This document shows positions 20,161 to 53,141 of a stretch of DNA of 64,000 nucleotides, in pieces. The notes under the pieces are model-generated. The model had not been told where the DNA came from and made no database searches. It saw only the letters and a program-made list of their open reading frames with translations. Each line of letters starts with the position of its first letter. Position 1 is the first letter of the stretch. The translations under genes and the position numbers were made by a program. The DNA comes from Oscillospiraceae bacterium (GTDB taxonomy: Bacteria; Bacillota; Clostridia; Oscillospirales; Ruminococcaceae): NCBI GenBank assembly GCA_017550285.1, contig JAFZPP010000028.1:1-64000 (forward strand), read 5' to 3'.

Positions 20161-20219
20161 GAAATTACTGCCGGAATTGTACCGAACCGGCTGTACACTG
20201 TAAAAAGGGAGGGACTTAT

Positions 20220-23147
20220 ATGCAGAAACATTTTACAAAAAGAATCGTTGCAGGATTGCTGACTGCTGCAATGATCGTACCGCTGACTGTCAGCTTTGCT
20301 GAGCCGCAAGGGGTATCGGCTGAGAATGGAAGTAACGAGTTACTGGGCGAAACAACCTTTGATTACAAGATCGTCCCGTGGATGCCGGTTGAAGCCAGTC
20401 CGGCAAAACAGAATTTCATGATCGAGGACGGCGCTGTTCACCTGACAATCCTGAGGGGAAAGGGCGCATCATTGTCGAATTACGATCTGCAATTCCGCCA
20501 CAGAAATCTGGAATTTCGGAAAGATCACAAGTACATGGTCAGCTTCAAGGCAAAAGCCGCTCGGAACGGCATGGAGCTTTGCAGCCGGATCGACAGGAAC
20601 AGCTTAGAAGATCCGCTGTTTATGCTCGACGGTCAATCGGGAGAAATGATCATGGGACCGGCATTCGGCGGCATGTGGGGCACTCCGCTCAAGCTGACAA
20701 CGGAATTCAAGGAATACTCCGGCTTGTTCACTCCGACTGAGGATATTGAGGGCGCGGAATGGATATTTACTTACGCATACGACGATACCTACAGCGGAAA
20801 TGCACAGGACGGCGATGAGCTCTGGTTTGATGACATGTCCATTAAAGATATCACATGGAACGAAGAGATTCCGCAATCCAGCTACGGCTATACCGCGCGC
20901 GGATACAGCGGGCTGGAAAACAATTTTATCTCTGTCAATCAGCTCGGATACCTGCCGGGGCTTGCAAAGATTGCAACGCTGAGCGATAACAGCGGCGATG
21001 TTCTTTACGAAGCAGAAACACTGAATCTCGACAGCAGCTATGACTATGAGATCATAAATGTTTCGGATGATACCGTCGCATATACGGGCAAAACCGAGAA
21101 AAAGACCTTCGATGCCGATTCCGGTGACTATGTCTGCAAAATTGACTTTACAAAATTCAATACGGAAGGTGAATACTATATCCGGATCAAGGGCAGGGAG
21201 TGGCGTTCGTTCCCGTTCCGGATCGGTTCGGATGTTTATCAGGAAAAAGATCATGATCTGCTGACAAATGCGCTGAATTATTTTTATCAGAACCGAGCCG
21301 GCATAGATATCGAAGAAAAATATATCACTTCCGGTGAGAAAGAAAAGCTCGCACACGCGGGACAGCATAATACAGAATCCGGATTTGTGCAGACGCGCTG
21401 GCGGAATGAATACCTGACATATGAAGAGGCGTCCAGAACCTATGCATCCTCTGAGATTGATGTAAAGGGCGGCTGGTATGCCTCCGGCAATCAGGGTAAA
21501 TATATGCCGGAAGGCGGAATGACTGTCTGGACGCTCCAGAATATGTATGAGCGTGCATTGCAGACAGCATCCGGAAGGGATAAATTCGCTGACGGCTCCG
21601 GAACGGTTGTGATTCCGGAAGCAGGCAACAAGATTCCGGATATCCTTGATGAATGCAAACATGAACTGGACTTCATGGCAAAGATGAAGGTTTCATCCAA
21701 TGAACCTACATGGGGCAAATATGCCGGTCTGTATTATCACAAGGTTCAGGATCATAAATGGATCGAGATTGCGACCAAGCCGTGGGATTATGTCGAGGGC
21801 TATGAAATTGCCCGCATTGTCAAGCCGCCGACATATGCAGCGACGCTCAATTTCGCCGCATGCGCAGCACAGGCTGCAAGACTCTGGCAGGATTATGATG
21901 CGGATCAGGCAGCAGTTTATCTAAAACAGGCAAAAGAAGCATATGCTGCTTTTCTGCGTGTATATCAGGAGCCGGATCTGATTATGACTGCGCATCCTGA
22001 ATACTGGACTGATTGCCCGAAGGAGGAGCTGAACGAAGTATCGCTCTTTGCGCCGATGTATCAGGCAAAGGGCGGTGAGCCATACGGCGATTTTCAGCTC
22101 AGCGATGATGCTTACTGGGCAGTCTGTGAGCTTTATATCTCCGCAAAGGAAATGAATGACAGCGATGCAGAATCGTATTATGAGGAACTCAAAAAATATA
22201 ATGATGAAGGTTCATTCATTTACAATTACAAGGATGCATTTCGTTTTCAGCCGCGAATTAACGGCGGCGAAAATTTAACCAACGACGGCTCATATACAGT
22301 ATTTAACTGGGGCAATACCGGTGCGGCAGGCTGCATGTCACTGATGCTGCACAAAGACCTGCTTTCTCCGGCGGAGGCGCTCACGCTGGAGCAGTCGTTG
22401 CTTGATACTGCCGATACCTACCTGATAATTGAAAATGAGCAGGGCTACGGCATACCGTATAAGTATGAGCCGGACTATAGTGAACCGATCGGGTCGCCGA
22501 CAATCGTCATTCAGGGCTTTGAGTACGGCTCCAATGAACGGGTGCTGAATAATACCATTGCGCTGGCATATGCCTATGATCTGACCGGCGATACAAAGTA
22601 CATGAACGGCGTTGTCTCCGGAATGGACTATCTGCTCGGCAACAATCCGCTTGCATACTCCTATATTACCGGCTACGGCTCCTATCATGTCAAGAATCCG
22701 ACACACAGATACTGGTGTGCAGAGCTTGATAAGACGTTTCCCTCTGCGCCGGACGGCGTTCTTTCGCTTGGTCCGAATGCAGGTTTACAGGATCAGTATG
22801 TGCGTGCACTCGGTTTTGTCCCCGGAAAAAAGGATTCGGTTTCCGAACGCTGCTATGCCGATTCGGTTGAATCGTGGGCGACAAATGCAGTTTCTCTTAC
22901 CTCAAATGCATCGCTTGCATGGGTTGTTTCGTACTTGCAGGATTATGAAACACCGATGCCTGCCGGTGTCATTGTACCCGGCGATGCGGACGGGAACGGG
23001 AAAGCGAATATTGCCGATGCTGTCATGCTGACGAAATACCTGCTCGGCTCCGGCTGGATCAGAAATCCGAAAGCAGTCGATATGAATGCGGACAATAAGC
23101 TGACAGCCGCCGATCTGACACTGCTCAAGCGTGAATTGCTCAAATAA
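20220..23147 (+). CDS. CBM4-Ig-GH9-dockerin protein lacking the GH9 catalytic residues
   Basis: 975 residues, secreted. Signal peptide about 1-35; CBM4/9-like module about 40-200; Ig-like CelD_N domain about 238-335 (NFISVNQLGYLPG start); GH9-type domain about 345-905; dockerin about 917-975 (GDADGNGKANIADA, VDMNADNKLTAADL). This is the layout of theme-D GH9 enzymes such as CelD or CbhA. Yet the segment GGWYDAGDxGKY of the family reads GGWYASGNQGKY, so the two catalytic Asp are Ala421 and Asn424, and the C-terminal STNEVAIN reads ATNAVSLT, so the acid Glu is Ala890. Other conserved parts (ITGYGS, LGPNAGLQD, SLAWVVSYL) are kept. It is therefore probably non-hydrolytic, perhaps a glycan-binding cellulosome component. 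Good RBS (AAGGGAGGG), own promoter and terminator. Confidence 0.88.
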   Translation: MQKHFTKRIVAGLLTAAMIVPLTVSFAEPQGVSAENGSNELLGETTFDYKIVPWMPVEASPAKQNFMIEDGAVHLTILRGKGASLSNYDLQFRHRNLEFRKDHKYMVSFKAKAARNGMELCSRIDRNSLEDPLFMLDGQSGEMIMGPAFGGMWGTPLKLTTEFKEYSGLFTPTEDIEGAEWIFTYAYDDTYSGNAQDGDELWFDDMSIKDITWNEEIPQSSYGYTARGYSGLENNFISVNQLGYLPGLAKIATLSDNSGDVLYEAETLNLDSSYDYEIINVSDDTVAYTGKTEKKTFDADSGDYVCKIDFTKFNTEGEYYIRIKGREWRSFPFRIGSDVYQEKDHDLLTNALNYFYQNRAGIDIEEKYITSGEKEKLAHAGQHNTESGFVQTRWRNEYLTYEEASRTYASSEIDVKGGWYASGNQGKYMPEGGMTVWTLQNMYERALQTASGRDKFADGSGTVVIPEAGNKIPDILDECKHELDFMAKMKVSSNEPTWGKYAGLYYHKVQDHKWIEIATKPWDYVEGYEIARIVKPPTYAATLNFAACAAQAARLWQDYDADQAAVYLKQAKEAYAAFLRVYQEPDLIMTAHPEYWTDCPKEELNEVSLFAPMYQAKGGEPYGDFQLSDDAYWAVCELYISAKEMNDSDAESYYEELKKYNDEGSFIYNYKDAFRFQPRINGGENLTNDGSYTVFNWGNTGAAGCMSLMLHKDLLSPAEALTLEQSLLDTADTYLIIENEQGYGIPYKYEPDYSEPIGSPTIVIQGFEYGSNERVLNNTIALAYAYDLTGDTKYMNGVVSGMDYLLGNNPLAYSYITGYGSYHVKNPTHRYWCAELDKTFPSAPDGVLSLGPNAGLQDQYVRALGFVPGKKDSVSERCYADSVESWATNAVSLTSNASLAWVVSYLQDYETPMPAGVIVPGDADGNGKANIADAVMLTKYLLGSGWIRNPKAVDMNADNKLTAADLTLLKRELLK

Positions 23148-23200: not shown

Positions 23201-25907
<2,707 letters not shown>

Positions 25908-50383: not shown

Positions 50384-53029
50384 TTATCCAAGCAGATAAC
50401 GTTTCAGGCATGTCAGATCACGCGCATCAAGTATCTGATCGCCGTTGATATTCGCTGCGCGCCAACTGCACGACGTTTCATCCGGAAATGTTCCTTTCAG
50501 CAGATAGGCTTGCAGCGCCGCTGCATCCTTTGCATTACAGATATGATCGCCGTTGACATCATATTTCCAGTGATCCGGAACCGGATATCCGTACAGCGCC
50601 AGCTCGTTCATATCACCGCCGGTATGCTCAATCAGCAGCAGATCGGTACCGGGATACAGCTCCTGCGCCGGAGAAAGATCACGCGCCATATAGCTGCCGA
50701 GATCGGATGACCAGAGAATCCTGTCCGTATATGCATCCTTCACCGTGATACCGCCCGAGCTGTATGTATCGAACACACCGCAGCCTTGCAGAACATACGG
50801 TTCGCTGAGCTTCACGTAGCACGATGCCTTTCCGCTGCCTGCACTTGTTTTCGGTGTTTCCAGATCAGCCGTATCTCCGTAGAAGAATTGCGGCATCGTT
50901 TCCGGTTCATCAAACATCTGATAAAACAGCTTGAGTCCGGCATCCTTTGGTGCAGTTTTCAGATCACATGCTTCCGTACTGAAATCCTTGCTCAGAGAGA
51001 TCGAAGACGGTCTGATATACTGATACGCACCGTTATAAACATCCTCACGCTGCGCGGTCATAGAAACAAAGATCGGTGTTTCGCTGATATCCAGCGTTAC
51101 AATGCCGTCCTTGACAGGAACAATACGGCGTCTTCCTTCGGCAAATTCACCGGGCTCTGTGACGACAACGCTTTTCAGATTCGGCACATGCAGCTGATAA
51201 TCTTTGATAACTTTGCCGGTATCCGTCGGAAGCCAGAGACAGTAAATTGAAGATGCTGCATTGTTTTTCTCAGTCTGACTGCGAATGAAGAAATACTTTT
51301 TCACTTCATCGTCCGTCATATCCGCAGCAAAATAGGAATCCCGCAGCACATCGCGCATACACGCAGTATAATACCATGCGAGTTTTTTGTTCCAGCTGCC
51401 CTTCTGTGTCACAAGTCCGGAATTATAGTACACGCCCTCGCCTTCATCACGCAGCTGAAATTTTGAGATACGGTCTGCTCCGGCAGCGATTGTATTCAGA
51501 TAGGTTCGCGCAACACGCTGTGCATATTTCAGCTGATATGCCTCGTTCTCGTGACTGTCAATGCCTTCCTCTTCACAGTCACTCATCGGCACTTCAAACT
51601 CGGAAATCCATAACTGCGTATGCGGTGCGTTATCTGACATCCATGCACGGATTTCCTTGATGCGGGATGCAAGCTGCGATGTATCGGGATTTGCGACCTC
51701 CGGTCCGAGATGCACATTGATGATATCGGCTGCGAAAAGCCCGTCTTTACGGTTATAATCAAACCATTCCTTCATCTCCGAAAGATAATCCAGCAGCGGC
51801 GCACCGGCAAGCAATCCCCCGACCGCCAGCGCAAAATGCGGATCTGCCTGCTTTACACCGGCATTTGGAATCATGCCTTCGTGACCGTCGAAATCGGCAG
51901 AACACATTGCGGCAAGCTCATACGGCGAAAAATAATTTGCCTTCCCGCTCCATGTTTTATTTGGTTCATTGCAGTTCTCGACACCGTACAGCAGATTCAG
52001 TCCGGTTTTCGGTTCGGAGCCCTCGGCAACATTCAGCGTTTTGCTGTCAATTTCCGGATTGCTGCCGTATCGTGCGGCAATCTGATACATCGCCTGTGCA
52101 TGAATCTTATAGCTTGCGGGATCTGTTGTGCCGGCACCCTCTGCAACCGGTATCTCAGGCGGCTTTGTTCCGCCCGAAATCACGGTACTGCCGCCCTGAA
52201 TACAAGGAATGACGCTGATTCCGAGCTGCTGCATGCGGGAATAATAGAGGTCCATATCCCCCCATGTCCCCTGCGTAAATTTGACCCTCCCCTGCTCATC
52301 CAGCAGCCAGCTGAGATTATGATATTCGCGGACATTGCCGGCTGCCATGATTGCAGACATCGGATCGTCAATAAAGGCATTGAATCCGATTTTCCCGCCT
52401 GCCATGAGGTTTTCCAGTGCATATTCATCGGGACGGTTTTTCGCATCCGTTTTCGCCTTCTGCGTGTCACTGAGCGGAGAATGGAGATAACCGTAAATTG
52501 CCAGTTCACTGACGCCGCTGTCACCGCAGGGCGCGGTAAAACGAAGATATCTGGTTGCACGCGGCTTCTCAAACTGCAAACCCTGCCAGGTCTGATAGGA
52601 ATTTGTTGTAAAATTGCCGATCTGGTTCCACGCAAACGGCGCTCCGTCCTCAATCACCCAATCCTGCACACCGTTCGTATCCAGATAGCAGATTCCCGTT
52701 ATGACATAATTCGCCTGCAAATCTATATAAAAAATGTCGTCCCCGAATTCATCCTGCCAGTTCGGTTTCCAGTTTTTGGAACGGTCTGTCTTTTCCCATG
52801 ATTCCGCGCTGACTTTCAGTTGATCGGGCGATACCGGTACGTATTCCTGATTATCAAAAAGCACGGATGCCGGATTCAGATAATCCGCACCGATATAAAC
52901 CAGATTGACATCCCGAATAATTTTATCCGAAAGATCAATCTGTTCCGAGACAGGCGCTGCGGATACGGCAGGCATACAGCAAGCGGCAAACACCGCCGAT
53001 GAGAGCAGCGCAGCAGTACGCCGAAGCAT
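50384..53029 (-). CDS. Secreted dockerin protein with an unassigned clan-A-like glycosidase domain
   Basis: 881 residues. Signal peptide about 1-25; a beta-sandwich N-terminal region about 35-185 resembling a discoidin/CBM32-type domain (ATRYLRFTAP, GVSELAIYGY); a (beta/alpha)8-like domain about 205-640 with NEP at Asn354-Glu355 (YGVENCNEPNKTW, likely acid/base) and Glu477 in LWISEFEVP (likely nucleophile), the spacing seen in GH clan A; a further beta-rich part with a second GYP-ending discoidin-like module about 690-815; dockerin about 822-881 (YDVNGDHICNAKDA, ANINGDQILDARDL). I cannot place it in a GH family; GH39- or GH5-like enzymes are closest by motif. Start at 53029 follows AAAGGGGG; the longer frame includes the promoter region. 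Consensus promoter upstream. Confidence 0.8.
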   Translation of the reverse strand: MLRRTAALLSSAVFAACCMPAVSAAPVSEQIDLSDKIIRDVNLVYIGADYLNPASVLFDNQEYVPVSPDQLKVSAESWEKTDRSKNWKPNWQDEFGDDIFYIDLQANYVITGICYLDTNGVQDWVIEDGAPFAWNQIGNFTTNSYQTWQGLQFEKPRATRYLRFTAPCGDSGVSELAIYGYLHSPLSDTQKAKTDAKNRPDEYALENLMAGGKIGFNAFIDDPMSAIMAAGNVREYHNLSWLLDEQGRVKFTQGTWGDMDLYYSRMQQLGISVIPCIQGGSTVISGGTKPPEIPVAEGAGTTDPASYKIHAQAMYQIAARYGSNPEIDSKTLNVAEGSEPKTGLNLLYGVENCNEPNKTWSGKANYFSPYELAAMCSADFDGHEGMIPNAGVKQADPHFALAVGGLLAGAPLLDYLSEMKEWFDYNRKDGLFAADIINVHLGPEVANPDTSQLASRIKEIRAWMSDNAPHTQLWISEFEVPMSDCEEEGIDSHENEAYQLKYAQRVARTYLNTIAAGADRISKFQLRDEGEGVYYNSGLVTQKGSWNKKLAWYYTACMRDVLRDSYFAADMTDDEVKKYFFIRSQTEKNNAASSIYCLWLPTDTGKVIKDYQLHVPNLKSVVVTEPGEFAEGRRRIVPVKDGIVTLDISETPIFVSMTAQREDVYNGAYQYIRPSSISLSKDFSTEACDLKTAPKDAGLKLFYQMFDEPETMPQFFYGDTADLETPKTSAGSGKASCYVKLSEPYVLQGCGVFDTYSSGGITVKDAYTDRILWSSDLGSYMARDLSPAQELYPGTDLLLIEHTGGDMNELALYGYPVPDHWKYDVNGDHICNAKDAAALQAYLLKGTFPDETSCSWRAANINGDQILDARDLTCLKRYLLG

Positions 53030-53060
53030 GAAAATTCCCCCTTTACGTTTGTTTTCATAT

Positions 53061-53089
53061 AGTATACCACGTTTTGCACAAAATGTCAA
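53061..53089 (-). promoter_or_regulatory. Promoter of the dockerin glycosidase gene
   Basis: Perfect TTGACA (53089-53084), 17 bp, TATACT (53066-53061) on the minus strand. Confidence 0.85.
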
Positions 53090-53141
53090 CAATTCGCGCC
53101 GGATAGTTGTGTTTTACGATAGAACTGAACAATTTGGATTC

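Follow-up and report, generated by a model that had tools for sequence, protein, structure and literature searches.

The DNA analyzed here, referred to below as the window, is a stretch of 64,000 nucleotides from an Oscillospiraceae bacterium (assembly GCA_017550285.1, contig JAFZPP010000028.1). It carries a gene for a protein in which the modules CBM4, CelD_N Ig-like and GH9 follow one another in the order of the CbhA-type enzymes, with a type I dockerin at the C-terminus (Table 1). The frame is open over 975 codons. By fold and descent the protein is a GH9, with a match to Pfam PF00759 above the cut-off and the GH9 fold in a confident structure model (mean pLDDT 88.7), and its CBM4 was assigned by predicted fold, the Pfam score being under the cut-off. 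Since the genome also encodes cohesins, the dockerin marks the protein as cellulosomal. A scan for promoter-like motifs gave 8 hits, which is within chance of the 6.7 expected.

Table 1. Positions in the window of the degenerate GH9 gene, its modules and altered sites, and one neighboring gene.
Feature	Position	Strand	Remarks
Degenerate GH9 gene	20220..23147	+	975 aa; signal peptide-like N-terminus, CBM4, Ig-like, GH9 fold, dockerin
Ribosome-binding-site-like purine-rich stretch aaaaagggaggg, upstream of ATG	20202..20213	+	By eye
Secretion signal-like N-terminal segment, residues 1-37	20220..20330	+	By eye; modelled as disordered, pLDDT <50
CBM4-like module, residues 38-211	20331..20852	+	
CelD_N Ig-like domain, residues 236-330	20925..21209	+	
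GH9 domain without catalytic residues	21210..22934	+	
Ala421 and Asn424, replacing two catalytic Asp (CbhA Asp383, Asp386)	21480..21491	+	
Glu620, Gly in 57/57 intact relatives	22077..22079	+	J30 Gly with main-chain contact to the -1 sugar, by motif mapping
Ala890, replacing the catalytic acid Glu (CbhA Glu795)	22887..22889	+	
Type I dockerin	22974..23144	+	Class not seen on intact GH9s of the same genome
Neighboring dockerin protein, two esterase stretches and CBM6	23520..25907	+	Context only

The preliminary description had placed the gene beside a double esterase, and a dockerin protein with two esterase stretches does adjoin it. It is not a conserved partner, however, as esterase homologs were present near 5 of 45 other loci, many of which have short flanks, and no conserved genomic partner of the degenerate GH9 was found among the loci examined. 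In two loci (L043:5100-7739 and L045:13756-16524), LTD-CotH-dockerin proteins are encoded near the degenerate GH9. Elsewhere in the window, positions 50384-53092 encode a protein of 902 residues in which the dockerin is the sole Pfam domain at E 0.001.

Active GH9 enzymes carry two catalytic Asp and one Glu, in place of which the protein has Ala421, Asn424 and Ala890. These substitutions within a preserved CBM4-Ig-GH9-dockerin layout are as the preliminary description had reported, and the loss of the conserved catalytic motif gives the protein the sequence signature of a pseudoenzyme. Relatives were drawn from 396 genomes of the family, with at most two candidates scored per genome, from 30 genomes of the genus, and from GTDB genomes (the best 80 of 172 relatives, in 79 loci). 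Together with some additional stretches, these loci yielded 134 distinct reading frames, 128 of which were long enough for a tree. The triad was readable in 123 of the 128 and consisted of Asp, Asp and Glu in 76, while at least one residue was replaced in 47 and the acid Glu was absent in 38, figures that describe relatives sampled by similarity to the window protein and not GH9s at large.

In a first tree (FastTree, 128 sequences, without the three triad columns), 49 sequences formed one clade with a support of 99, comprising 45 degenerate sequences, two with an intact triad and two that were incompletely readable. Among the 47 readable members of this degenerate group, three triad positions are replaced in 11, two in 20, one in 14 and none in two; a sequence with one residue replaced may well encode an active enzyme, especially where the change is Asp421 to Glu. 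Members were present in at least 15 of the 30 genomes from the genus, counting two in which the contig does not reach the third position and one (G409) in which the frame has a stop. The genome of the window itself has 11 GH9 matches, namely eight with the DAGD motif, the protein described here, a second degenerate copy with Thr, Asn and Thr (L010/L164), and a short fragment (L011); the acid Glu motif was seen in seven of the eight, the search pattern having missed L005. The preliminary reading as a pseudo-enzyme can be kept, but not as a single-gene oddity of this gut bacterium, since many degenerate relatives exist in rumen Ruminococcus. A search of the open-licence literature turned up no paper describing degenerate GH9s from ruminococci, although an earlier mention elsewhere is possible.

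Several loci hold additional copies. In the R. flavefaciens strain MA2007, another degenerate gene with the CBM4-Ig-GH9-dockerin layout (Thr, Asn, Ser; L047:2747-6064), distantly related to the first, lies some 4 kb upstream of it. Four GH9 genes lie in a row at L086:10001-22581 (one intact, one with Glu-Asp-Glu, one with Glu-Asp-Asp, and a Glu-Gly copy that runs off the stretch), and in both L163 and L097 an intact copy stands in tandem with two that have Asp-Asp-Ser. A GH9 on a contig titled Alistipes (JAMPAJ010000001.1, L065) groups with those of Ruminococcus, and the title may be wrong.

The residues that surround the sugar in the enzyme J30 have been named, with CbhA E795Q as the template (PMC6038386), and we mapped them onto the protein by motif rather than by a residue-by-residue alignment of J30. 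Asp144, Asp147 and Glu523 of J30 thereby correspond to positions 421, 424 and 890, Tyr151 to 428, Trp226 to 514, Gly304 to 620, Tyr306 to 622, Trp352 to 697, Trp408 to 769, His467 and Arg469 to 828 and 830, Tyr519 to 886, and Tyr528 to 895. In the intact group, 56 or 57 readable sequences share the same residue at each of these columns. The window protein retains six of the 13 positions (Tyr428, Trp514, Tyr622, Trp697, Arg830 and Trp886), and besides the triad it has Tyr at 769, Glu for Gly620, Thr for His828 and Ser for Trp895.

In the degenerate group as a whole, retention averages 0.36 at 12 qualifying ligand columns versus 0.71 at the 247 GH9 columns that are invariant in intact enzymes. 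A value as low as this arose in 1 of 20,000 random draws, or 4 of 20,000 without the three catalytic columns, although these are not exact probabilities since the sequences are related and some ligand columns are gappy. The catalytic acids are kept in 15 of 49 (D421), 28 of 49 (D424) and 11 of 47 (E890) sequences. Several acids with a structural role or located elsewhere are nearly invariant (E444 49/49, D474 49/49, E478 48/49, E637 48/48, D881 47/47) and others are less well kept (D337 16/48, E684 18/45). Retention of the intact-invariant columns is 0.81 in the CBM4 and 0.96 in the Ig-like domain. Many of the closest relatives have lost most ligand positions, the paralog L164 in the same genome retains two of 12, and the retained sets vary widely from one sequence to the next; binding in the old groove is apparently not a clade-wide trait.

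We also considered the possibility that the protein is a changed enzyme, which either acts on a different substrate or uses migrated catalytic residues, with Glu620 (next to the -1 site) and Glu431 as examples. At 620, a carboxylate takes the place of the Gly in contact with the -1 sugar, Glu431 is present in 26 of the 32 sequences of the subclade to which the protein belongs, and in the wider group Glu890 is kept as noted above and the full triad in two of 47. Against this, Glu occurs at 620 in just three of 42 sequences, and there is no GH9 column at which 60% or more of the degenerate sequences have gained an acid. We consider this alternative quite improbable.

A single origin of the degenerate group, as suggested by the first tree, was rejected. 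We refer to 97 columns that are invariant in intact enzymes but variable in the degenerate group as released columns. A more careful tree of 72 sequences, from which these columns were excluded, splits the group and needs five changes, at least three of them forced, and a quick tree of 46 sequences needs six, with an AU test rejecting one clade (dlnL 166.85, p 0.0007). The group was defined after the first tree, and dropping the released columns also removes signal that would unite its members. Therefore, we rely only on the 21-sequence degenerate clade in which the careful tree places the window protein (support 99/99; 18 of the sequences nested, 99/97), one member of which, L118, has an intact triad. 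In the same tree, degenerate copies of L163 and L086 are placed beside intact copies of the same contig or close kin, as is a degenerate copy of L149 with less support, which would mean repeated loss following tandem duplication. L162 (Asp, Asp, Ala) falls outside the group in the first and the careful tree alike, and so does the L047 gene at 2725 (Thr, Asn, Ser) in the first tree, the only one that includes it; these two are further losses. We considered and dropped gene conversion between intact copies and their degenerate tandem neighbors, as no compared segment was near identical (highest 0.81). Two degenerate neighbors in L163 (1618-1890 and 4653-4925) have the same dockerin and are identical in the last segment compared, but differ in the rest, which looks like gene conversion.

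A syntenic ortholog (L103/L158, genome G414), with three upstream genes matching in order, covers residues 31-600, the position of the Glu lying past the end of its contig. Between the two genes dN/dS is 0.203 over 566 codons and 0.148 for GH9 residues 331-600; three neighboring genes of the same genome pair gave 0.039, 0.065 and 0.150. These values indicate purifying selection on the gene. The two catalytic Asp are replaced differently in the ortholog, which has Thr and Ser at 421 and 424 where the window protein has Ala and Asn. Among 20 close pairs within the group, dN/dS was 0.165-0.326 in 19 and 0.514 in one, for which dS is only 0.026. Pooled over 10 non-overlapping pairs, one of which consists of tandem paralogs, it was 0.258 for GH9, 0.264 for CBM4 and 0.226 for the Ig-like domain. 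An intact pair, L165 and L157, was dropped as a molecular clock, its dS being about 0.05 versus 0.55-0.98 in three neighboring genes; the near identity of these GH9s across two genomes whose compared neighboring genes diverge points to a recent transfer or a binning error.

That the gene is a decaying pseudogene, or a product of sequencing or assembly error, is so improbable that we give it almost no weight. One relative does have an in-frame TAA (G409, L104/L150), and the degenerate sequences lie on average farther from the common ancestor than the intact ones (0.94 versus 0.42, FastTree), as decay could explain. Against these readings stand the long open frame, the dN/dS values for the ortholog pair and the pooled GH9 domains, and the presence of degenerate members in many genomes, including those of R. 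flavefaciens ATCC 19208, MA2007 and YL228, whose records are not titled as MAGs and which carry Lys, Asp and Gln.

Within the GH9 domain, dN/dS is 0.033 for 169 core columns, 0.313 for ordinary columns and 0.353 (0.286-0.450) for the 97 released columns, the last figure being inflated because these were chosen for varying. The analysis shows that the protein is kept by selection and that the old groove is under average but no special constraint, since the released columns resemble ordinary ones. This resemblance, and the variable ligand sets, are what would be expected if the GH9 barrel were nothing more than a stable spacer separating CBM4 from the dockerin, with a groove that has no role and drifts freely. 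We regard such a spacer function as unlikely, as the released columns still have a dN/dS well below 1, the window protein retains several sugar-stacking aromatics, and a barrel of about 575 residues would be a costly spacer.

The dockerin belongs to a different class from the dockerins carried by the intact GH9s. We counted 19 cohesin matches in the genome, of which 16 exceed the cut-off, and at least 149 dockerin matches (150 scored of 296 candidates), and Dockerin_1 was found at E <=0.001 in 35 of 44 C-termini of the degenerate group. The dockerin of the window protein matches 37 places in its own genome at E <=1e-4, itself included, among them the other degenerate GH9 (L190, the same place as L164), and none of them lies inside the frames of the eight intact GH9s, by coordinates compared by eye. 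Dockerin_1 was present in all 19 scanned places of the 29 others retrieved. The scanned proteins include one each with GH5, GH11, GH44, GH124 and GDSL, and other proteins of this dockerin class have GH30-like, polysaccharide deacetylase, Cthe_2159, CotH, LRR or no further domains.

Dockerins of the relatives were scored against 10 of this class and against those of five of the eight intact GH9s in the genome. All 21 scorable members of the 23-sequence clade to which the window protein belongs in the first tree were closer to the former, although one dockerin exchange may explain all 21, the clade being related, and the window protein is itself no independent test since the reference dockerins were picked via its own matches. 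The intact-GH9 dockerins were the closer match for 52 of 55 intact relatives and for 21 of the 26 remaining group members, one of which has an intact triad. The nearest sequence outside the clade in the first tree, L124, has the same dockerin class as the window protein; because L144 and L151, further out, carry the GH9 class, the exchange apparently followed the first catalytic losses. About 270 residues follow the dockerin in L164 (5275-6300), L043, L045, L046, L047, L048, L060, L092, L118 and L119, with an SH3_3-like part below the cut-off and then a module starting with KPVIYLYPE that had no Pfam match where scanned; the window protein is without this extension.

The ScaC adaptor was the sole partner bound by the group 3 and group 6 dockerins of R. 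flavefaciens FD-1, and these dockerins are described as occurring almost exclusively on hemicellulases and allied enzymes (PMC5301203); those of group 6a have Phe in both repeats (b1, b2) and Trp in c1 and d (PMC2930009). The latter source lists the GH9s of FD-1 with groups 1a-1c only. The R. flavefaciens members of the present clade fit the group 6a description by eye, a comparison made against the published description. The dockerin of the window protein is without the group 6a Phe, and the proteins of its genome that share its class are mixed and extend beyond hemicellulases. We therefore treat a ScaC-like adaptor as a lead for where the window protein may dock.

The preliminary proposal of a pseudo-enzyme retained in the cellulosome gains support from sequence, selection and predicted fold. 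A glycan-binding or substrate-presenting role, also put forward there, is plausible because six of the 13 ligand positions, the CBM4 and the dockerin are kept. CbhA E795Q, with a single change, is described as inactive and was crystallized with cellotetraose (PMC3795549; PMC6038386), and a GH9 groove can thus hold a chain without cutting it. We think it probable, with considerable room for doubt, that the protein is a GH9-derived and catalytically dead cellulosome subunit that docks and holds a beta-glucan or wall surface without hydrolysis. The protein would be secreted, and its dockerin, using another cohesin than those of the intact GH9s, would attach it to the scaffold where other plant-wall proteins that are not GH9s also dock. 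The CBM4 and what is left of the aromatic groove (Trp514, Tyr622, Trp697, Tyr769 and Trp886, with Arg830) would hold the chain or surface, which would not be cut, and neighboring enzymes may then act on the held material. Against binding in the groove stand the carboxylate of Glu620 beside the -1 site, the loss of His828 and Trp895, and Tyr in place of Trp769, and the groove may be closed or altered.

More tentatively, and as a possibility that we would sooner doubt than assume, cellulosomal ruminococci may repeatedly have made a diversified set of non-catalytic groove subunits from duplicated CbhA-type GH9s, as plant-wall lectins, one large lineage of which moved to a different docking site through exchange of its dockerin and serves the non-GH9 branch. 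Part of the cellulosome may be a binding or positioning machine made of retired enzymes. Genome scoring for cellulose breakdown counts GH9 modules as enzymes, in the ruminococcal surveys considered here as well. With the acid Glu absent from 38 of the 123 readable relatives, such counts may overstate catalytic capacity. The family also offers a natural series of partly or wholly disarmed GH9 grooves in which binding, catalysis and dockerin specificity can be separated.

The closest structural counterpart considered is the GH9 of C. thermocellum CbhA (PDB 1ut9 and 1rq5), which has the same Ig-GH9 fold (586 residues, 1.8 A, 37% identity), and the N-terminal module resembles the CBM4 structures of CbhA and CelK. 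In the window protein, Asp383, Asp386, Glu795, His737 and Trp678 of CbhA are replaced, and a Glu corresponds to CbhA Gly553. The intact paralog L008 (L008/L165) of the same genome is 56% identical and has the same module order. Unlike the window protein, the intact CbhA-type GH9s of Ruminococcus keep the triad, all three residues being present in 56 of 56 readable sequences, and the 52 of 55 mentioned above carry another dockerin class. CttA of R. flavefaciens (PMC2721979; PMC5301203), compared here by its description, is described as built of CBMs and not derived from a GH9, but it is, as proposed for the protein studied here, a non-catalytic dockerin protein with binding modules, and it belongs to a complex of the same kind.
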